This document shows positions 4,371 to 21,153 of a DNA stretch of 23,767 nt, piece by piece. The number at the start of each line of letters is the position of its first letter. Position 1 is the first letter of the stretch. The stretch is from a virus: positions 1 to 23,767 of the IMG/VR virus record IMGVR_UViG_3300005663_000197. One strand, given 5' to 3'. The position numbers and the translations under genes were made by a program. The notes under the pieces were generated by a model. The model worked only from the letters and a program-made list of their open reading frames with translations. It did not search any database and was not told where the DNA came from.

Positions 4371-4594
4371 GAGCTGCCTTTGAACTATGTATGGCTGAGT
4401 GGCATGTTACCCCAGATTACATCGTGAATAACTGGACTAATGAACTTCTCGACCTGATGGTAAAGAAACTTAATGAACGGTGGGAGCGACAAAGCCAAGC
4501 GATAAAACATCCGGAAGAATTAGAGAAAGAGAGAGAATTTGTGGAACAACCATTCTTTGGAAATACGGATTTTATAAAGGTGGTTAAGAACTAA
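4328..4594 (+). CDS. Tail assembly chaperone C-terminal (T) extension, made by -1 frameshift
   Basis: In the -1 frame, reading goes from the slippery site through 'GSIGAAFELCMAEWHVTPDYI' to a helical charged end. The fusion with the upstream product would be about 205 residues. The only in-frame ATG (4391) lacks a Shine-Dalgarno site at a usable distance, which supports frameshifting over independent initiation. The last bases overlap the 3' end of the opposite-strand HNH gene by 11 bases. Confidence 0.7.
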   Translation, partial: SGKSPEGDGEAGSIGAAFELCMAEWHVTPDYIVNNWTNELLDLMVKKLNERWERQSQAIKHPEELEKEREFVEQPFFGNTDFIKVVKN

Positions 4595-5294
4595 ATGGCG
4601 ATAAATTGTCATCTAACTTCCTAACTTTGTCTTCTAAAAATTTGATGCGTTTAGCTTTTTCAGCTAGGACAAGGCTATGAGCACGAGTAGACAGGCCAGC
4701 AAGATTTTCAGGGCGGTTGTCATTCTTAATTCCATTCAGATGATGAACTATCCACCCCTTGGGCAATGGCTTATGGTGAGTATCCTCCCAAACAAGAATG
4801 TGTTCACCTATATAGCCGTTCACTCCGCTTCTCAGGTGGTTTGGATTATATACTCGAATGTAACCAGTACGAGTTTCATAGGTTCGATAGCCATTGTAGC
4901 GAGGGTGCATATCACCTTTCTTGAATCCCATTTGAGGATATTTGCGATAAGCCAACTTGATAGCTTCACCAGAACTCCTCAACTTGAGACCATTGTCATC
5001 AAAGAGCCGTTTCAGAGTATAAAAAGATATGCCCAATTGCTGATAAGTTTCTCCAAAGGAAAGTTCTTTATCATAGTAAAGTTCTTTAGCCCTTGGGAGC
5101 ATAGATATAATCCTGTTACCCTGACCTTTCCGATAAATCGCTGGAGTCTTTGGCGGGATACCACAAAGACGCATATTCCTACGGATGGTGTCCTTGCAAA
5201 CTCCAAGCCTGTTAGCAACCTCGTGTATTTTAAGGTTCTCGGTATGATAAAGTCGGTTAATAATATCTTTGTTTATAGGGATTGGTTTTGGCAT
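4584..5294 (-). CDS. HNH homing endonuclease with N-terminal helix-turn-helix repeats
   Basis: 236 residues on the strand opposite to its neighbours. Two helix-turn-helix-like segments (about 20-45, 'IHEVANRLGVCKDTIRRNM', and 75-101) should bind DNA. An HNH nuclease domain lies at about 130-206, with 'GEHILVWE' (His165), 'GWIVHHLNGIKNDNRPENL' (His184/185, Asn193, Asn197). The ATG at 5294 has an AGAGGG site. It has its own consensus promoter and converges on the chaperone gene, so it is a free-standing mobile endonuclease inserted in an intergenic gap rather than part of an intron. The neighbouring tape measure start looks altered. Confidence 0.9.
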   Translation of the reverse strand: MPKPIPINKDIINRLYHTENLKIHEVANRLGVCKDTIRRNMRLCGIPPKTPAIYRKGQGNRIISMLPRAKELYYDKELSFGETYQQLGISFYTLKRLFDDNGLKLRSSGEAIKLAYRKYPQMGFKKGDMHPRYNGYRTYETRTGYIRVYNPNHLRSGVNGYIGEHILVWEDTHHKPLPKGWIVHHLNGIKNDNRPENLAGLSTRAHSLVLAEKAKRIKFLEDKVRKLDDNLSPFSS

Positions 5295-10801: not shown

Positions 10802-10972
10802 ATGAATATAAAAGACTTACGCAAAGCATTAAACCTTACCCAGGCGCAGATGGCTGTTAAACTCGGGGTAGCTGAGTTTACTGTCAGAAGGTGGGAGGCT
10901 GGTACTCATAAACCTTCCCAGCTCGCTCTCCGGCAATTAGCCAGGCTAGAAAAGAAGATTAAAAGGGGGTAA
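10802..10972 (+). CDS. Mini XRE-family transcriptional regulator, 56 aa
   Basis: Too short for most gene callers. It is one helix-turn-helix of the Cro/CI (XRE) kind and nearly nothing else: 'LRKALNLTQAQMAVKLGVAE' then 'TVRRWEAGTHKPS', followed by a basic C-terminal helix. A cytoplasmic DNA-binding role is expected. It is the first gene after the late terminator, and its ATG lies at the predicted transcription start, so it would be translated from a leaderless message. A paralogue lies at 17533-17700 in the same arrangement. Confidence 0.85.
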   Translation: MNIKDLRKALNLTQAQMAVKLGVAEFTVRRWEAGTHKPSQLALRQLARLEKKIKRG

Positions 10973-13060: not shown

Positions 13061-14111
13061 AAGAGACTGGGATAATGATGTCCGGGGACCATCCAAAGAA
13101 GGTGCTGGATGGAATTAAGACACAGACTAGAAGGGTGATTAAGCCTCAGCCCATCGGTAAGTTTGGCGGAGTTAGTGAACGATTTGCTATGGCTAGTCAT
13201 TGTCCATATGGTCAGGTAGGCGACAGGCTGTACTTGGTGAGTCCGACATCCTGTACCGCTTGACAGATGATAGAATATATGCTATCCTTACAATGGAGGT
13301 GCAAGATGGAAGATATAAAACTGACGAATGGTGTCCTTCTCAAAGCTATCCCAGTCTCCCTCAACGAGGATTACATGGCAGGCTCGGATGGTCAAATCTA
13401 CTCACGAACAAAATACAAGGGCTTTGGGCGGAAGGAATACGTGGACTGGTATCCGCTAAAAGGTCACACTACGGGGAAATACTTAGCGATAACAATGAGC
13501 CACGAGAATCAGAGAACTACCAAGACTGTTCACCGTCTGATATGCATGACTTTTCATGGGATGCCCCTATACCCGTCATATCAGACCAGGCATTTAGATG
13601 GGAACGGACAAAACAACTTGCCAAGCAATCTGAAGTGGGGAACTCAAGAGGAAAACTGGATGGACAGAAAGATACACGGACACGGGAACGAGGGGCAAAA
13701 GCATCCAATGGCAAAGCTCACGGACTTCCAGATGAAGGCATTGAAATGGGCGGTAGAGGGCGGATTAGTCAGTCAGCACCACGCAGCGAAGGTTCTTGGG
13801 ATGTCGCAGGCTGGCATCTCCGCAGTTGTCCATCGACAATCCTTAGATTAAGACCCTCAATCCATATGCCCCGATGGGCTTCCCGGATAACCCTTGAGAT
13901 TACTGAGGTCAGAGTGGAGAGGATTAGGGAAATAACTGAGGAAGATGCAAAATCAGAGGGCATTATCGGGGTGCATACTGCTATGGGCGTTCTATATAAA
14001 CCAGCCTTTTCTCGCTTGTGGGATTCCCTCAATGCCAAACGTGGCTATGGATGGGAAGTCAACCCCTGGCTGTGGGCCTTAACCTTCAAACTAATTTCAC
14101 AAAAGACTTGA
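13057..14111 (+). pseudogene. ASCH-domain protein gene split by a homing endonuclease and a one-base frameshift
   Basis: The N-terminal part, in the frame of 13057, reads 'KVLDGIKTQTRRVIKPQP' and 'CPYGQVGDRLYL', the start of a well-known phage ASCH-domain (PUA-like) family, then goes out of frame at about 13236 and stops at 13263. In the frame of 13200 the family continues as 'ESDILYR...GRYKTDEW' up to 13331, and resumes at 13851 with 'RPSIHMPRWASRITLEITEV' and 'DSLNAKRGYGWEVNPWLW'. Adding one base and removing 13332-13850 (519 bases) gives a 178-residue protein, the normal family length. The intervening bases code for an HNH endonuclease in the other frame. Read-through in the ASCH frame is fully open across the insert. 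Confidence 0.85.
13306..13851 (+). CDS. NUMOD4/HNH-type homing endonuclease nested in the ASCH gene
   Basis: 181 residues from the ATG at 13306, which has GGAGGTG five bases upstream; a weaker in-frame ATG exists at 13267. Residues 11-40 ('LKAIPVSLNEDYMAGSDGQI') match the NUMOD4-like DNA-binding start. The HNH domain spans about 74-120 with 'VHRLICMTFHG', 'RHLDGNGQNNLPSNLKWGT'. A C-terminal helix-turn-helix is at about 137-178. The ribosome site, start codon and first eight codons lie in the ASCH sequence, and the stop TAA spans the right junction. There is no room for an intron, so it is a bare mobile endonuclease. Confidence 0.85.
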   Translation: MEDIKLTNGVLLKAIPVSLNEDYMAGSDGQIYSRTKYKGFGRKEYVDWYPLKGHTTGKYLAITMSHENQRTTKTVHRLICMTFHGMPLYPSYQTRHLDGNGQNNLPSNLKWGTQEENWMDRKIHGHGNEGQKHPMAKLTDFQMKALKWAVEGGLVSQHHAAKVLGMSQAGISAVVHRQSLD

Positions 14112-14136
14112 CAAACAAGGCAATGAAGTTTATTAT
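14108..14136 (+). promoter_or_regulatory. Sigma-70 promoter P2, leaderless for the DUF5659-like gene
   Basis: TTGACA (14108-14113) overlaps the ASCH stop codon, and TATTAT (14131-14136) follows after exactly 17 bases. The ATG at 14145 is eight bases beyond the -10, at the expected transcription start. AAAAGACTTGACAA is shared with P1. Confidence 0.8.
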
Positions 14137-14764: not shown

Positions 14765-14842
14765 GTTACTATTGTTACTGTTGTACCCCCGTGTTACAAA
14801 TTGTTACAGAGTTACTAATGTTACGGTTGTTACTATTGTTAC
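14765..14842 (+). repeat. GTTAC iteron array upstream of the replication ATPase
   Basis: Eight copies of GTTAC begin at 14765, 14774, 14793, 14803, 14811, 14820, 14829 and 14838, most of them 8-10 bases apart. The first and last pairs form an identical 14-mer GTTACTATTGTTAC at 14765 and 14829. It lies in a 183-base gap without a gene (14672-14854), in front of a helicase-like ATPase, so an origin or an operator is likely. The rest of the gap shows nothing clear. Confidence 0.6.
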
Positions 14843-14854
14843 AAGGTGGTAGTC

Positions 14855-15727
14855 GTGGCTGATATAACAAGAAAGGATATAGAGGACTGGATAGGAACCA
14901 TCCCAACGGGTGAGTTTCATTACAAAGAAGTCCTTGATGGGCAGATTGACCCTGCTAGTTTCGGGTTGCTCAGAAAGTATATGCACGACATATGCAATAC
15001 AAAGGAGCCTATTTGTGAGTCAGTCGGCAGAAGGGATGGGTACTATATTGCGATTGACAATCATGCTCACCCTCTTGACTGGCAGAGTGTTGGCAGTAAG
15101 ATTGATTCGGGTTTGGTGTTACCTTTGGAGTTAAGGAAATATGCGTTCATCTATCCTGATACGACTATTGTATTAGCCGGTGCTAAGAGTTCCGGTAAGA
15201 CAGGGTTTCTTCTCAGGGTGGTAGTAATGAATATGAATAGGGTGAGGGTAGAACTTTTAACGAACCTGGAGGGCGGACTAGCTATGTTGAAAGATAGATT
15301 CGATGCTATGGATATTGACATACCGGTGCCCGCACCTTTCAGTGTAAAGTTTGTCACTGACCATTTTCATCAGTATATAAAGCACCCTAATACACTCTAT
15401 GTTATTGATTATATAGATGCTCCTGAAGGGACCGACTTTTATATGATTGGAGCTCAGGTTAAAAAGATAGACCAGAAACTTCAAGGTCTTGGTTCCAATG
15501 CGGTGATTGGGTTGCAGAAGCCAGCCGGGAGAGACACAGCCTTTGGGGGAGAGCAGACACTTAAAGCTGCAACACTTTACCTGGCAATGGACTCTAATAA
15601 ACTAAAGATAGTAGATGCCAAAGTACCGGCAGACAAAACGGTGCATCCAAAAAATATGGCGTGGACTTTCCTCTATAACAATGAAGGAACTAGCTTCGAG
15701 AATATACAACCTTATCATGGAGATTAA
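14855..15727 (+). CDS. RecA/DnaB-fold replication ATPase
   Basis: The GTG at 14855 is chosen because AAGGTGG lies in front; an upstream GTG at 14846 lies inside that site. The N-terminal 90 residues form a helical, possibly winged-helix module. A RecA-like core follows with Walker A 'GAKSSGKT' (109-116) and Walker B 'LYVIDYID' (181-188), then 'VKKIDQKLQGLGSNAVIGLQKP'. It resembles single-domain phage helicases and RepA-type ATPases that act in replication or recombination, probably as a ring on DNA. Its neighbours, an iteron array and an RNA ligase, suit that role. No toprim or DEAD motifs were seen. Confidence 0.75.
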   Translation: MADITRKDIEDWIGTIPTGEFHYKEVLDGQIDPASFGLLRKYMHDICNTKEPICESVGRRDGYYIAIDNHAHPLDWQSVGSKIDSGLVLPLELRKYAFIYPDTTIVLAGAKSSGKTGFLLRVVVMNMNRVRVELLTNLEGGLAMLKDRFDAMDIDIPVPAPFSVKFVTDHFHQYIKHPNTLYVIDYIDAPEGTDFYMIGAQVKKIDQKLQGLGSNAVIGLQKPAGRDTAFGGEQTLKAATLYLAMDSNKLKIVDAKVPADKTVHPKNMAWTFLYNNEGTSFENIQPYHGD

Positions 15728-15918: not shown

Positions 15919-16539
15919 ATGAAAGAATATCATAAAATTCAAAGTATCTACAAGAGGGATGAACAAACCCATAAGTTCATCGAGGGTAACTTTTCACTCC
16001 CAGAGTTCGAGTACCTGAAAGATAATAAGTGGGAGTTTACCGAGAAGATTGACGGCACAAACATCCGTATTGGTTGGAATGGCGTGGCTATGAACATTGG
16101 TGGGAGAACGGACAATGCTCAGATACCTACTTACCTGTACCAGAAACTCACGGAGCTTTTCAGTGATGAGAAGTTAGCATCAGTCTTTCCTGACGCCGAT
16201 GATGTAATGCTCTGTGGTGAGGGATACGGTGCTAAGATACAAAAAGGTGGTGGTAACTATATCCCTGACGGCGTAGACTTCATTCTCTTTGATGTGCTAA
16301 TCGGTGATTGGTGGCTGAGAAGGTATGATGTTGAAGACATAGCTCTATCGCTTGGCATTAAGACTGTACATATTATTGGTCGAGGTACATTAGAAGATGC
16401 CGTGCAGGGTGTTAAGAATGGTGTCACTTCTGCCTTCGGTGATTTCCTTGCTGAAGGATTAGTGATACGTCCTACCACCGAACTCAAAACGAGAAGCGGA
16501 CACCGCATTATCACGAAACTCAAACATAAAGACTTCTAA
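15919..16539 (+). CDS. ATP-dependent RNA ligase (Rnl family)
   Basis: 206 residues from the ATG at 15919, preceded by a modest AAGGAG. The nucleotidyltransferase motifs appear in order: motif I 'EKIDGTNIR' with the adenylated Lys43, motif III 'CGEGYGAKIQKGG', IIIa 'DFILFDVLIGDWWL', IV 'EGLVIRP' (179-185) and V 'KLKHKDF' (Lys200, Lys202). It joins RNA ends after self-adenylation, and in phages is often an RNA-repair enzyme that counters host tRNA cleavage. It is short and lacks a clear accessory domain. A partner kinase is not in the window. Confidence 0.9.
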   Translation: MKEYHKIQSIYKRDEQTHKFIEGNFSLPEFEYLKDNKWEFTEKIDGTNIRIGWNGVAMNIGGRTDNAQIPTYLYQKLTELFSDEKLASVFPDADDVMLCGEGYGAKIQKGGGNYIPDGVDFILFDVLIGDWWLRRYDVEDIALSLGIKTVHIIGRGTLEDAVQGVKNGVTSAFGDFLAEGLVIRPTTELKTRSGHRIITKLKHKDF

Positions 16540-16602
16540 CCTAATACACATTAAGGAGAATAAAGATGGAAGAGAGACCTGGGAGTGATGAAGCGATAAA
16601 AC
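16539..16602 (+). repeat. 64-bp direct repeat, copy 1 (leader plus first 12 codons)
   Basis: Identical to 19884-19947. It includes the ribosome site and the first residues MEERPGSDEAIK of the downstream gene. The identity stops abruptly just after codon 12, so it covers the 5' leader and start of the gene. Confidence 0.95.
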
Positions 16603-16994: not shown

Positions 16995-17177
16995 ATGGAA
17001 CCTGAATCAGTTATTAAATGTGGAGCAGCAATAGGGCAGATATTTGCGGCAGGCTTTTTCAGTGGCGTAGGACTGATAATGCTAATTCTTTCTATCACAG
17101 CATGGAGCATCTACAGGGCCAACCGGCCAGGGAAGTCTAAATGCATAGAGGAAGGAGAGGGCAGCTGTGAACATTGA
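16995..17177 (+). CDS. Small single-pass membrane protein, 60 aa
   Basis: The ATG at 16995 has GGGAGG eight bases in front; a TTG at 16977 is in frame but is not needed. Residues about 14-42 are strongly hydrophobic ('FFSGVGLIMLILSITAWSIY'), and the C-terminus is charged with two Cys. Its end overlaps the start of the DnaA-like gene. It could be a regulator or inhibitor on the membrane. Function unknown. Confidence 0.65.
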   Translation: MEPESVIKCGAAIGQIFAAGFFSGVGLIMLILSITAWSIYRANRPGKSKCIEEGEGSCEH

Positions 17178-17514
17178 AGCCCTCAGCGATATTGGAGAAC
17201 GAAACCAGCCGGTCACTATGGGGTTGATTATCGGGACGGTGGCAGCCGTGTTTGTGGTCGATACCTCTGCGTTAATCGGACGCGGCCGGACGGCGGAGGT
17301 TGCCCAGGCCCGGCAGGCGGCTATGTATGTGATGAGTATGACGGATAAATATACGTTGGCTGCTATCGGCGGCTCTCTGGGTGGCCGGAGTCCTGCCACC
17401 GTTAGTCATGGCTTTCAGGTTATTGCCAAGTCAATAAAACGGCAGATCACCCTGCGCAATAAAATTAAGGAAGTCCAAGGTATCCTCTCGAGGGGGCTTG
17501 ACAGAACCGCCTAG
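17167..17514 (+). CDS. Stand-alone DnaA domain IV-like DNA-binding protein (copy A)
   Basis: 115 residues from a GTG that has GGAGAGG in front and overlaps the previous stop. From about 28 to 105 it follows the C-terminal helix-turn-helix of DnaA: 'RTAEVAQARQAAMYVMS', 'YTLAAIGGSLGGRSPATVSH' and a final helix. The segment 72-82, 'GGRSPATVSHG', corresponds to the DnaA signature 'GGRDHTTVLHA'. There is no AAA+ domain. Such a protein could bind DNA at an origin and compete with or recruit host proteins. A paralogue is at 18626, flanking an initiator gene. Function is inferred. Confidence 0.8.
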   Translation: MNIEALSDIGERNQPVTMGLIIGTVAAVFVVDTSALIGRGRTAEVAQARQAAMYVMSMTDKYTLAAIGGSLGGRSPATVSHGFQVIAKSIKRQITLRNKIKEVQGILSRGLDRTA

Positions 17515-17526
17515 TCGTGGTATATA
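17498..17526 (+). promoter_or_regulatory. Sigma-70 promoter P3, leaderless for the second XRE gene
   Basis: TTGACA (17498-17503) and TATATA (17521-17526) are 17 bases apart. The ATG at 17533 is six bases beyond the -10, at the expected start point. The -35 lies within the last codons of the DnaA-like gene. Confidence 0.8.
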
Positions 17527-17532
17527 TAGATT

Positions 17533-17700
17533 ATGGATAGTATAGCTATAAAAACATTGAGGAAGAAGTTAGGATTGACCCAGAAGGAGCTAGCAGCTCG
17601 AGTCCGGGTTGACGCAATCACGGTTAGTCGCTGGGAGAGAGGGGAGCAGAAACCTTCTTCCCAGGCTGAAAGGCAACTGACAAGACTAAAAAAGAAGTAA
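17533..17700 (+). CDS. Second mini XRE-family regulator, 55 aa
   Basis: One compact Cro/CI-type helix-turn-helix: 'LRKKLGLTQKELAARVRVDA', 'ITVSRWERGEQKP', and a Lys-rich C-terminal helix. It is clearly related to the 56-residue protein at 10802, about half identical by eye, including 'KPS' and 'RQL.RL'. Like its paralogue it is placed straight after a strong promoter with no leader. It starts the initiator gene's transcript and could be a Cro-like switch for replication. The operator is unknown. Confidence 0.85.
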   Translation: MDSIAIKTLRKKLGLTQKELAARVRVDAITVSRWERGEQKPSSQAERQLTRLKKK

Positions 17701-17709
17701 GGGTAAGCC

Positions 17710-18510
17710 ATGAAAAGCAAGGTCTTATTCGACAAGTCGCCTTTAGTCATTGACCGGGACTTGGCGCAGATAGTCGGATTACACGAAGCGATTATTGTTC
17801 AGCAAATCCACTATTGGCTAGTTGGCAATGAAGAACGCACTAACAATTTCCGTGATGGCTTTTATTGGACCTTCAATTCCTACCGGGAATGGCAGCAAAC
17901 TTTCAACTTCTGGAGCGCCAGGACTATCCAGAGATTAATCCTAGACCTTCAACAAAAAGGCATTCTTGTTGTTGGTAACTTCAATCGGCTAAAAATAGAC
18001 AAGACTAAATGGTATCGAATAGACTATGACAAACTGTCGTCATGGTCGCCCACAAATGACATTAAAGACGAACTGTCGTCAACACAACGACAAACTGGCA
18101 CCATGGTTACGAAAGAAGTTCTTGACCATGGTGCCAGTTTGTCGTCACCATTACCAGAGACTAACGCAAAGACTACCACAGAGACTAACATCAAAGAAAG
18201 AATAGAGAAGGGAGAACCTTCTCCCCCGCTTAACTTGGTAGAACAAATATTCATCGCTATGAGGTCCTATTATGGTTATCCTGATAAGATTGACCAAGAC
18301 CCGATCCCCAATTATGGTAAAGAAGGGAAGTCCATAAAAAGGATGCTTGAGAGAGGTCTGACCCCCAAGCAGATATTAGAGTGCTGGATAGACAAATGCA
18401 AGAAAGCCGGCATCTTCAAATCAATGGTCTACGTGAATGAGGATATAAGAGTGGAGTTGCCGGTGGATAAGTTTGAAAATCAGAAATACAGCCATATTGT
18501 GCACCGATGA
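17710..18510 (+). CDS. Phage replication initiator / replisome organiser
   Basis: 266 residues. Residues 1-112 form a winged-helix DNA-binding domain with 'PLVIDRDLAQIVGLHEAIIV' and 'QQIHYWLVG', then 'YREWQQTFNFWSARTIQRLI', typical of replication proteins in phages. A Ser/Thr-rich linker (about 107-165) is encoded by a cluster of inverted repeats, as in lambda O. The C-terminal 100 residues are helical with 'SIKRMLERGLTPKQILECWI', which may recruit helicase or its loader. It sits between the two DnaA-like genes and is followed by a zinc-ribbon protein. Confidence 0.8.
   Translation: MKSKVLFDKSPLVIDRDLAQIVGLHEAIIVQQIHYWLVGNEERTNNFRDGFYWTFNSYREWQQTFNFWSARTIQRLILDLQQKGILVVGNFNRLKIDKTKWYRIDYDKLSSWSPTNDIKDELSSTQRQTGTMVTKEVLDHGASLSSPLPETNAKTTTETNIKERIEKGEPSPPLNLVEQIFIAMRSYYGYPDKIDQDPIPNYGKEGKSIKRMLERGLTPKQILECWIDKCKKAGIFKSMVYVNEDIRVELPVDKFENQKYSHIVHR
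18028..18145 (+). other. Candidate replication origin: inverted-repeat cluster inside the initiator gene
   Basis: Four related elements occur in the linker region: GACAAACTGTCGTCATGG at 18028, GACGAACTGTCGTC at 18067 and two 21-bp arms, 18087-18107 and 18125-18145, that are perfect reverse complements with a 17-base loop. All share the core ACAAACTG/CAGTTTGT or TCGTC. Origins in lambdoid and related phages lie at this place, inside the gene of the initiator that binds them. The position in a low-complexity linker is consistent. No A/T-rich melting tract was identified with certainty. Confidence 0.6.
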
Positions 18511-18629
18511 ATAAACCTATTCGACCTTGTATCTGCGGCTCAAATGAATGGTGGTGGCGTGAGCCTTCTAATTTTGGCCCGGGTGGATGGTTGTGCTCAT
18601 GGTGCCACCCGGAACCGGAGGACAAATGA
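18507..18629 (+). CDS. Mini zinc-ribbon protein, 40 aa
   Basis: ATGA overlaps on both sides couple it to the initiator gene and to the DnaA-like gene. It has 'CICGSNEWWWREP' near the start and 'LCSWCHPEPED' near the end, giving two Cys pairs, CxC and CxxC, with a following His, as in small zinc ribbons of phage replication operons. It may act with the initiator. Function unknown. Confidence 0.75.
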   Translation: MNKPIRPCICGSNEWWWREPSNFGPGGWLCSWCHPEPEDK

Positions 18630-19066
18630 AACCGGACCAGATAATTACTCTGAGAGATAAACCTTGTCAGATTGAGTTGCCCGCAGCTGATATTAAAGCC
18701 GCGGTTGCCGATGCCTTTTCTGTGTCGGTCGAGGTCTTAGAAAGTAAGGGCCGGGAGGATTATATCGCATTAGCCAGGCAAGTAGCCATGTATTTAATCC
18801 GGCAGAATACGTCTTTATCTCTATTGGAAACAGGAAGTTACCTGGGGGATCGGAGCCCGGCCACTGTATCTTTTGGTTACCAGAAAATAGCCAATGCGCT
18901 TAACGATAATCCCTGCTTAAAAGGGAAGGTTGATGAAATTAAGAGAGTGTTAAAAGGAGTATTAAAACAGGTTTGCGGGTGTCTCCCGATCTCAAAACTA
19001 TCGGTTCCGGATGCGGAATGGGGGGAGCGGAAGAAACCGAGCCCGCAAGCCGAAGGAGTAATATGA
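18626..19066 (+). CDS. Stand-alone DnaA domain IV-like DNA-binding protein (copy B)
   Basis: 146 residues from the ATG at 18626, which has GGAGG at good distance and overlaps the previous stop; an in-frame ATG at 18587 gives an unlikely extension. Residues about 24-105 match DnaA domain IV: 'VADAFSVSVEVLESKGREDY', 'ALARQVAMYLIRQ', and 'GDRSPATVSFGYQKIA' (74-89) as the recognition region. It is a paralogue of copy A, but with a longer N-terminus and a C-terminal tail having two Cys. There is no ATPase domain. It may bind the nearby origin-like repeats. Confidence 0.8.
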   Translation: MKPDQIITLRDKPCQIELPAADIKAAVADAFSVSVEVLESKGREDYIALARQVAMYLIRQNTSLSLLETGSYLGDRSPATVSFGYQKIANALNDNPCLKGKVDEIKRVLKGVLKQVCGCLPISKLSVPDAEWGERKKPSPQAEGVI

Positions 19067-19899
19067 ATAAAACACAAATAGAATGGGCTTTGAATCCTGA
19101 TGGTACACCGGGCTACACCTGGAATCCGATTACCGGCTGCTTGAATGGTTGCGAATACTGCTACGCCCGGAAGTTGGCTAATACACGGCTTTTCAAACGG
19201 TATCTTGATGAGCGTGGTATCTTAGCTCCTGAATGGGATGGTGATATATCTAGCCAGATTGACCCCTTCTATCCCCGCTTTTGGGAAGATAGATTACTTG
19301 ACCTCAAGACGAAAAAACCTGGACGTCATATTTTCCACAAACCAAGGGGTATATTTGTTTGTGATATGTCCGACTTATTTGGCATAGGTGTGCCTACAGA
19401 ATGGACAGGAAAGGTGATGGACACCATTAAAGAATGTCCACAGCACCGCTTCTATCTCCTGACGAAGCAGCCACAGAACCTCATCAAGTTCAGCCCCTTC
19501 CCTGATAACTGTTACGTTGGGATTACTGCTACTGATGCGCAGTCTTGTTTGAGCGGGTTAAGGGGATTAGAAGAAGTTGGTGCTCACGTCAAGTTCATTA
19601 GTTTTGAGCCGCTACTTGGCCATATTGGCGGTCTGTGGCTTGAAGATTGGCTAAAGAGTGGAACAGGTATATCTTGGGTCATTCTAGGTAGCCAGACAAA
19701 GCCCACAGCGATGCCAAAAATAGAGTGGGTTCAGGAGATAGTCGAGGCTGCGGATAAGGTTGGGGTCAAAGTGTTCCTGAAGCATAACCTCTATCCGCTA
19801 ATACTCAAGGAAGGGTGGGCAAACGACATATTTTGGCGACCACAACCTAATCGATTATTAGATTCAGAATTAAGGCAGGAGATACCTAATACACATTAA
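19063..19899 (+). CDS. DUF5131 (phage Gp37/Gp68 family) protein
   Basis: 278 residues from the ATG at 19063 with GAAGGAG in front. The start 'KTQIEWALNPDGTPGYTWNP' followed by 'ITGCLNGCEYCYARKLA' has a radical-SAM-like CxxxCxxC (Cys26, Cys30, Cys33). Later come 'IFVCDMSDLFG', 'HRFYLLTKQPQNL' and 'ISFEPLLG', all signatures of the Gp37/Gp68 family found in phages and mobile elements. Its reaction is not known to me; members often sit near a three-Cys-motif partner, which is not visible here. It starts a run of accessory genes and ends at the second 64-bp repeat. Confidence 0.9.
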   Translation: MNKTQIEWALNPDGTPGYTWNPITGCLNGCEYCYARKLANTRLFKRYLDERGILAPEWDGDISSQIDPFYPRFWEDRLLDLKTKKPGRHIFHKPRGIFVCDMSDLFGIGVPTEWTGKVMDTIKECPQHRFYLLTKQPQNLIKFSPFPDNCYVGITATDAQSCLSGLRGLEEVGAHVKFISFEPLLGHIGGLWLEDWLKSGTGISWVILGSQTKPTAMPKIEWVQEIVEAADKVGVKVFLKHNLYPLILKEGWANDIFWRPQPNRLLDSELRQEIPNTH

Positions 19900-19947
19900 G
19901 GAGAATAAAGATGGAAGAGAGACCTGGGAGTGATGAAGCGATAAAAC
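19884..19947 (+). repeat. 64-bp direct repeat, copy 2 (leader plus first 12 codons)
   Basis: Identical to 16539-16602. It begins inside the last codons of the DUF5131 gene and ends after codon 12 of the gene at 19911. A shorter version of the same leader, ACCTAATAC then AAGGAGAATAAAGATG, occurs at 20860-20892. Confidence 0.95.
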
Positions 19948-20426
19948 AAGGGTGTCGATGTCCCGTTATGGACAACCAAGTTGGGGTGGGTGGTATGTTC
20001 CAGCGTCCCGTTATATATCTCGACTGTCCTGTTCACGGGGATAAACCAGCCCCATTGTTGACACCAGAAAGACCCACACTTACAGAAGACCAATTCCATA
20101 GGGTTTGGACTGAAGCCGTAGGGCGTGAAGGATACAGTAAAGCATTATTCCAAGAGGTGCTAACTGCTCTTCAAAGCAATGGTGGGATAGCCCAACTCCT
20201 CAAAGTGAAAAGACCTGATGATTTGAGGGAGAAGTTATTGGAGTATTTCTGGGATGCGAAATATAGGCGGTCACAGGAATACAAAGTTTACATCTTGCAC
20301 GAAGCAGAAACATGGCAGGAATGTCTAGCTAAGGGGCTTCACCCGGGAGTGATTGAAAAATATAGGGAAGAATGCAAGGAAGTTAAGGAACTCCTAGCCT
20401 TGATAGATGAGAAGGAGAGGGAATGA
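19911..20426 (+). CDS. Mosaic phage protein with N-terminal Cys motif, 171 aa
   Basis: The N-terminus 'RPGSDEAIKQGCRCPVMDN' through 'IYLDCPVHGD' matches a small, common phage family with paired Cys and a DCPxH ending, probably a zinc site. It is fused to a helical module (about 58-105) and a stretch 'AQLLKVKRPDDLREKLLEYF' that also occurs in the protein at 20890, and a helical C-terminus. It appears built from separate modules. Function unknown. Confidence 0.75.
   Translation: MEERPGSDEAIKQGCRCPVMDNQVGVGGMFQRPVIYLDCPVHGDKPAPLLTPERPTLTEDQFHRVWTEAVGREGYSKALFQEVLTALQSNGGIAQLLKVKRPDDLREKLLEYFWDAKYRRSQEYKVYILHEAETWQECLAKGLHPGVIEKYREECKEVKELLALIDEKERE
20189..20219 (+). repeat. 31-bp direct repeat inside a coding module, copy 1
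   Basis: Identical to 20985-21015. It codes for the same residues, AQLLKVKRPD, in both genes, in the same reading frame. It therefore marks a shared protein module. Confidence 0.9.
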
Positions 20427-20889: not shown

Positions 20890-21153
20890 ATGAAATTGAC
20901 ACCAGAAGACATTGAACAAATATATATAGAGTGCGGGGTACTAAATAAGCCCTCCTTATCTTACTTGAATGAAAGGTTATGTGAAGCCCAACTCCTCAAA
21001 GTGAAAAGACCTGATAAGGAGAAGATAGCTGAAGCACTTTACTATTTTGACAAACCCATAGAATATCATTGCTGGGAATTATCACACCTTCAGGACTTCT
21101 ATCTTAATCGAGCAGACCAAATCCTATCCTTATTTGATGGAGAGAGGGGATGA
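20890..21153 (+). CDS. Hypothetical protein sharing a module with 19911 gene, 87 aa
   Basis: A leader like that of 16566 and 19911 (AAGGAGAATAAAG) precedes the ATG. The N-terminal 'KLTPEDIEQIYIECG' is followed by 'LCEAQLLKVKRPDKEKIAEA', encoded by the 31-bp repeat, and an acidic C-terminus 'ADQILSLFDGERG'. This suggests a small family of modular proteins. Function unknown. Confidence 0.7.
   Translation: MKLTPEDIEQIYIECGVLNKPSLSYLNERLCEAQLLKVKRPDKEKIAEALYYFDKPIEYHCWELSHLQDFYLNRADQILSLFDGERG
20985..21015 (+). repeat. 31-bp direct repeat inside a coding module, copy 2
   Basis: Identical to 20189-20219, in the same frame, about 800 bases away. Confidence 0.9.

Follow-up and report, generated by a model that had tools for sequence, protein, structure and literature searches.

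The window, that is, the whole stretch of DNA analysed here, is 23,767 bases long; it is recorded as a linear virus sequence and represents a fragment of a phage genome. On its + strand lies a replication cassette bounded by two genes predicted to encode stand-alone DnaA domain IV proteins: copy A (17167 to 17514; 115 aa, GTG start), recognised by Pfam, AF2/Foldseek, DNA-level matches, and GC content, and copy B (18626 to 19066; 146 aa, ATG start), recognised by Pfam and AF2/Foldseek and ending in a poorly ordered C-terminal tail. Between them, on the same strand, are a small XRE/HTH_3 regulator of 55 aa (17533 to 17700; HTH_3, 46.5 bits), a DnaD-like helicase loader/replication initiator (17710 to 18510; PHROG 6493, E 4.5e-38; PHROG 11233, E 1.6e-27), and a zinc-ribbon-like ORF of 40 aa (18507 to 18629), whose CxC...CxxC motif was read directly, which has no Pfam or PHROG match, and which overlaps the initiator stop and the B start. 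A DUF5131/radical-SAM-like phage gene (19063 to 19899, +; PF07505, 129 bits) follows, its start overlapping the B stop. Because the initiator, ribbon, B, and DUF5131 genes are connected by start-on-stop (ATGA) overlaps, they form one tight unit, and the sequence-only reading of this DNA, which had A and B enclosing the XRE gene, the initiator, and a zinc ribbon in a compact cassette, drew the locus correctly. No convincing DnaA-IV neighbour was seen at 57 DnaD-like loci, so the pairing of DnaA-IV with an initiator is no general trait of that initiator family. A second small XRE gene (10802 to 10972) resembles the one in the cassette and follows a TTGACA segment of promoter-like character, of which another copy lies at 14088 to 14114.

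Two further features of the window are candidates for a phage replication origin. The first is an intergenic array of eight GTTAC repeats (14765 to 14842, +), which may alternatively be an operator: it abuts the ribosome-binding site of a P-loop ATPase-like gene (14846 to 15727, +) whose GxxxxGKT-like motif was read directly and whose product has no significant match in Pfam, PHROG, or the PDB. The repeats are mostly spaced by 9 bp, and eight of them fall in 78 bp, where 500 Markov-resampled (dinucleotide-frequency) sequences never held more than three. The second is an inverted repeat inside the initiator gene (18087 to 18145, no strand assigned), with 27-nt arms that are 93% complementary and a 5-nt loop (59 bp in total).

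Both A and B pass the Bac_DnaA_C profile (PF08299), with 56.0 and 63.0 bits against a gathering threshold of 31.5 bits. The NCBIfam DnaA models align with the two proteins only over the C-terminal end (the last ~100 residues; 61 and 69 bits, under the full-DnaA cutoff of 344 bits), and by these models the AAA+ domain III and domain I are absent, as the sequence-only reading had stated of the AAA+ part. AlphaFold (AF2) models with pLDDT of 85 (A) and 81 (B) were compared by Foldseek with domain IV bound to box DNA from M. tuberculosis (the DnaA-DBD of 3PVP) and E. coli (1J1V). Model A superposes on either structure with an rmsd of 1.0–1.1 Å, and model B with 0.7–0.8 Å on 3PVP and 0.8 Å on 1J1V; both adopt the six-helix fold of domain IV (TMt 0.93–0.97). 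The profile search and structure prediction proposed in the sequence-only reading thus each bear out its assignment, with 56 and 63 bits in the one and a match to DnaA-DBD/DNA-box crystal structures at 0.7–1.1 Å in the other. On these models A and B are genuine lone DnaA domain IV proteins, and by sequence they are not DnaA initiator proteins, since domains III and I are missing. Over 100 aa, A and B share 37% identity. Copy A also matches weakly (15.3 bits) a short ‘hypothetical protein’ family, PRK06030.1-2 (NF004687), which we take to be a family of bacterial stand-alone DnaA_C proteins; this lies far under the cutoff of 181, and A is no member.

With domain IV of DnaA (PF08299; 1J1V, 3PVP), A and B share the fold, the helix-turn-helix, the minor-groove arginine equivalent to R399, the TV pair, and helix 5, but they are unfused to an AAA+ domain and carry S-P-A in place of D-H-T/S. 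E. coli DnaA reads the TTA half of the box with Arg399, placed in the minor groove, and TnCACA with the helix that begins at residue 434; the R399A and T435M proteins are defective (PMC5742627). The arginine is conserved in alignments as R41 in A (17287 to 17289) and R43 in B (18752 to 18754). In the alignment to 1J1V, the E. coli triplet D433-H434-T435 becomes S-P-A in both proteins, within a common reader motif, RSPATVS (A, 17386 to 17406; B, 18851 to 18871). The coordinates of the two genes given earlier proved exact, and the helix-turn-helix motif remarked on then is found as LGGRSPATVSHG in A and LGDRSPATVSFG in B. Judged by these residues, neither protein has the D433-H434-T435 reader of the classical DnaA box, TTATCCACA.

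The window itself points to the host. A prophage-like region of genome G300 shows synteny with its tail module across ~11 genes, at aa identities of up to 59%; homologues of early genes of the window occur in G302, and a homologue of its 2870–3943 gene occurs in G307. These three genomes fall in one order, which was reached from a Dehalococcoidia MAG. Ori-Finder proposed TTATCGAAA as the DnaA box of Dehalococcoides (PMC2275245), and three genomes of the order carry this box, which suggests Dehalococcoidales as its name. The phage thus appears to infect an order of Dehalococcoidia, probably Dehalococcoidales. The prophage-like region of G300 (contig C114, loci L272 and L276), whose terminase and tail genes show synteny with the window, also has DnaC-like loader ORFs; a second DnaA-IV match did not turn up in that genome. 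Another genome of the same class (G188, locus L293, 1477 to 1707) has a lone DnaA-IV ORF of 76 aa with GRDHSSV and a helicase-like ORF in the region. Within the tail module of the window, an HNH-type endonuclease ORF, probably a homing endonuclease, lies on the opposite strand (4584 to 5294, −), and related ORFs are present in locus L271.

The unusual helix of A and B is also that of the host order. Full-length DnaA in most genomes of the order reads [GD]R[SNTAG][PA][SA]TVS, with exact RSPATVS in G355 and G360. In a domain IV tree built on all columns, A and B nest inside the host-order DnaA clade (SH-aLRT 99 and 97). Without the ten motif columns, A remains close to the same rows, though not with strong support, and the placement of B is unstable. 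A common origin of the two copies, as opposed to two captures, is not rejected in the full tree (p-AU 0.39). By sequence, then, A and B have the [SNTAG][PA][SA]TVS reader motif and the clade placement of the variant host-order type, and differ from the full-length proteins in lacking domains I–III and in an identity of 44–48% at best to any sampled host DnaA. That the reading helix is kept at such overall identity suggests selection on it, although residues common to A, B, and host DnaA could be ancestry alone. Sequence, predicted fold, and ancestry together support the earlier proposal that the phage makes DnaA-type readers as separate subunits.

The ancestry of copy A can be followed somewhat further. 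Its GC content is ~55% against a background of ~42%, short stretches of its DNA match host dnaA (40 bp at 90% and 113 bp at 72%), and it retains a remnant of the domain III–IV linker, EALSDIG, where locus L018 has RALSDIA. Together these features fit an origin of A from the 3′ end of a dnaA gene captured from a host in this order.

What such a helix may read is indicated by the host genomes. Five low-branching members of the order retain DH or NH at the motif, so the variant helix probably arose once within the order. ‘DH’-motif genomes have TTATNCACA beside dnaA and variant-motif genomes have GTTATNRAAA. TTWTNCACA sites flank dnaA in DH-type L142, L153, and G226 and in NH-type L143; in variant members, GTTAT(C/A/G)(G/A)AAA sites lie beside dnaA, mostly in a single strand orientation. 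Counted over both dnaA flanks, GTTATNRAAA adjoins dnaA in 18 of 39 variant genomes and in none of 34 DH-type genomes (p 1.2e-6), whereas TTWTNCACA does so in 5/39 and 18/34, respectively (p 3.3e-4); these are raw genome counts, uncorrected for phylogeny, and probably reflect one well-marked switch. The remaining 21 of the 39 variant genomes have no GTTATNRAAA next to dnaA; in G006, G349, and G348, a different gene lies downstream of dnaA with no adjoining box, and dnaA seems to have been relocated there. An unsupervised de novo motif search of the dnaA-downstream regions of variant genomes recovered AAGTTATCAAA/AGTTATCAAAA in ~30 of 40. The recognition helix and the dnaA-adjacent box of this order therefore show an apparent joint switch at the sequence level, which points to DnaA-box specificity having changed naturally within a single bacterial order; residues and boxes are available from either side of the change. 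Set side by side, loci L142, L143, L153, and L183 (G226) and the variant loci (L126–L152 and others) pair a helix change from DH to NP, SP, or SA with the box change. Two other candidates were discarded: GATGGTGG repeats, enriched downstream of host dnaA, are coding sequence of the next, obg-like gene and no origin element, and an EM motif model of width 13 ended up describing simple AT-richness.

Neither type of box is enriched in the window, the fragment that our counts cover. There is no strict TTATCCACA, and TTWTNCACA-like sites (≤1 mismatch) number 37 against 43.8 expected, with no classical cluster. The sequence-only reading had seen no classical DnaA box, and its observation holds; given the host-order helix and the box change, none is expected in this phage. 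Exact TTATCGAAA is likewise absent, and GTTATNRAAA (≤1 mismatch) occurs at chance level (15 against 13.9 expected), its one exact copy lying within the tape-measure gene. The idea that A and B have a non-classical target was right in kind; the best candidate is the host GTTATNRAAA box.

Viral protein collections contain many lone DnaA-C proteins (BFVD entries), and A and B, as short, lone domain IV proteins encoded near replication genes, belong to this phage class. With the ‘DnaA C-terminal’ proteins of Freya_1, Gundel_1, phi19:3, and RHph_N28_2, they share size, the lone domain IV, and the replication-gene neighbourhood; in these four phages and in Arctus_1, the stand-alone DnaA-IV gene lies near replication-protein or DUF1376 genes. 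They differ in being two copies with the variant motif of the host order, whereas 8/9 stand-alone DnaA-IV proteins from phages of other bacteria have the usual DH motif (phage proteins alone compared). The kind is thus known, if uncharacterised (we found no paper on the function of phage lone DnaA domain IV proteins), and the S-P-A triplet common to the host order is new. Close relatives of A, B, or the P-loop gene were not present in viral_contigs; the alignments led there to four or five loci, all of them distantly related lone DnaA-IV genes. A whole-window megablast against phages gave no match. Many ‘phage’ matches from faecal and some isolate records were set aside, as they look like bacterial DnaA on bacterial contigs.

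We consider it an even call that A and B, as competitors lacking AAA+, bind the DnaA boxes of the host and that the phage DnaD-like loader meanwhile diverts the helicase. Both proteins would derive from the DnaA of the phage’s Dehalococcoidia host order; with the host-order reading helix kept, they should recognise the changed host box, of the predicted GTTATNRAAA type, and not TTATCCACA. As products of the early replication operon, they would occupy DnaA boxes at host oriC, in the dnaA–obg region and elsewhere, and would hold down host initiation, since proteins without AAA+ and domain I should form no initiation complex. Meanwhile, the DnaD-like loader would take the host helicase to the phage origin. 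We infer the host-box binding, the initiation block, the timing, and the benefit; host-like reader residues, combined with a host-type box that is unenriched in the phage window, favour binding to host DnaA boxes. The sequence-only reading had offered two uses, steering the phage’s own origin or competing with host DnaA, and it is the second that gains support from these two findings. A need for two copies is not obvious for a competitor. A phage-derived factor that lowers host initiation has a precedent in prophage YfdR, which binds E. coli DnaA and whose gene cluster inhibits initiation when overexpressed (PMC4776307); for A and B such an effect is only proposed, and their target would be the DNA sites of DnaA, as opposed to the protein itself that YfdR binds.

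Somewhat more tentatively, the pair may be anti-initiators that track a re-coded host origin, domain IV decoys having matched the host switch from TTATCCACA to GTTATNRAAA. If so, the decoys would offer a naturally occurring means to probe a bacterial origin whose code has changed. Unusual reader residues that match an unusual host clade make the target predictable (GTTATNRAAA) and testable on short DNA duplexes: competition for host boxes predicts binding to the host-type box over the GTTAC array and to the array over the classical box (duplexes GTTATCGAAAA, GTTATCCACAA).

The main rival, which we think unlikely though still a serious contender, is that the phage replicon uses A and B as its origin-recognition subunits, which would act on the GTTAC array or the inverted repeat of the initiator gene and recruit the DnaD-like loader. 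The neighbourhood of lone DnaA-IV genes in other phages fits this role equally well, A and B flank the initiator in one operon, and the array, far beyond chance, matches the host box in its 5′ GTTA half, the half read by the conserved arginine. Its 3′ half does not match, however, and we judge the 9-bp packing tight for domain IV; nor would a private target demand host-like reader residues. In B. subtilis, DnaD is engaged through parts of DnaA other than domain IV, and those parts are absent from A and B.

DnaA is also a known transcription regulator, and A and B might act as transcription factors at host-type or GTTAC-like boxes, regulating host dnaA or phage early genes. The abutment of the array on the P-loop gene start and the XRE regulator within the A/B unit speak for such a role, but we regard it as improbable: no sigma-70-like promoter was found at the array, host-type boxes are unenriched in the window, and the array could equally well be bound by the XRE protein. 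That A and B are functionless leftovers of host dnaA 3′ ends, captured and passively carried along, would fit the linker remnant, short DNA similarity, and host-like GC of A, but is very improbable: both frames are intact, have diverged, and possess clear ribosome-binding sites (B being start-on-stop coupled), the fold is intact and the reader residues are conserved, and genes of this kind recur across many phages.

The early region of the window also encodes an RNA ligase family protein (15919 to 16539; PF09414, 65.7 bits). A 64-nt exact repeat (16539 to 16602 and 19884 to 19947) places the same ribosome-binding site and first ~13 codons (MEERPGSDEAIK) before two different genes, and a 31-nt exact repeat (20189 to 20219 and 20985 to 21015) lies within two neighbouring coding regions.
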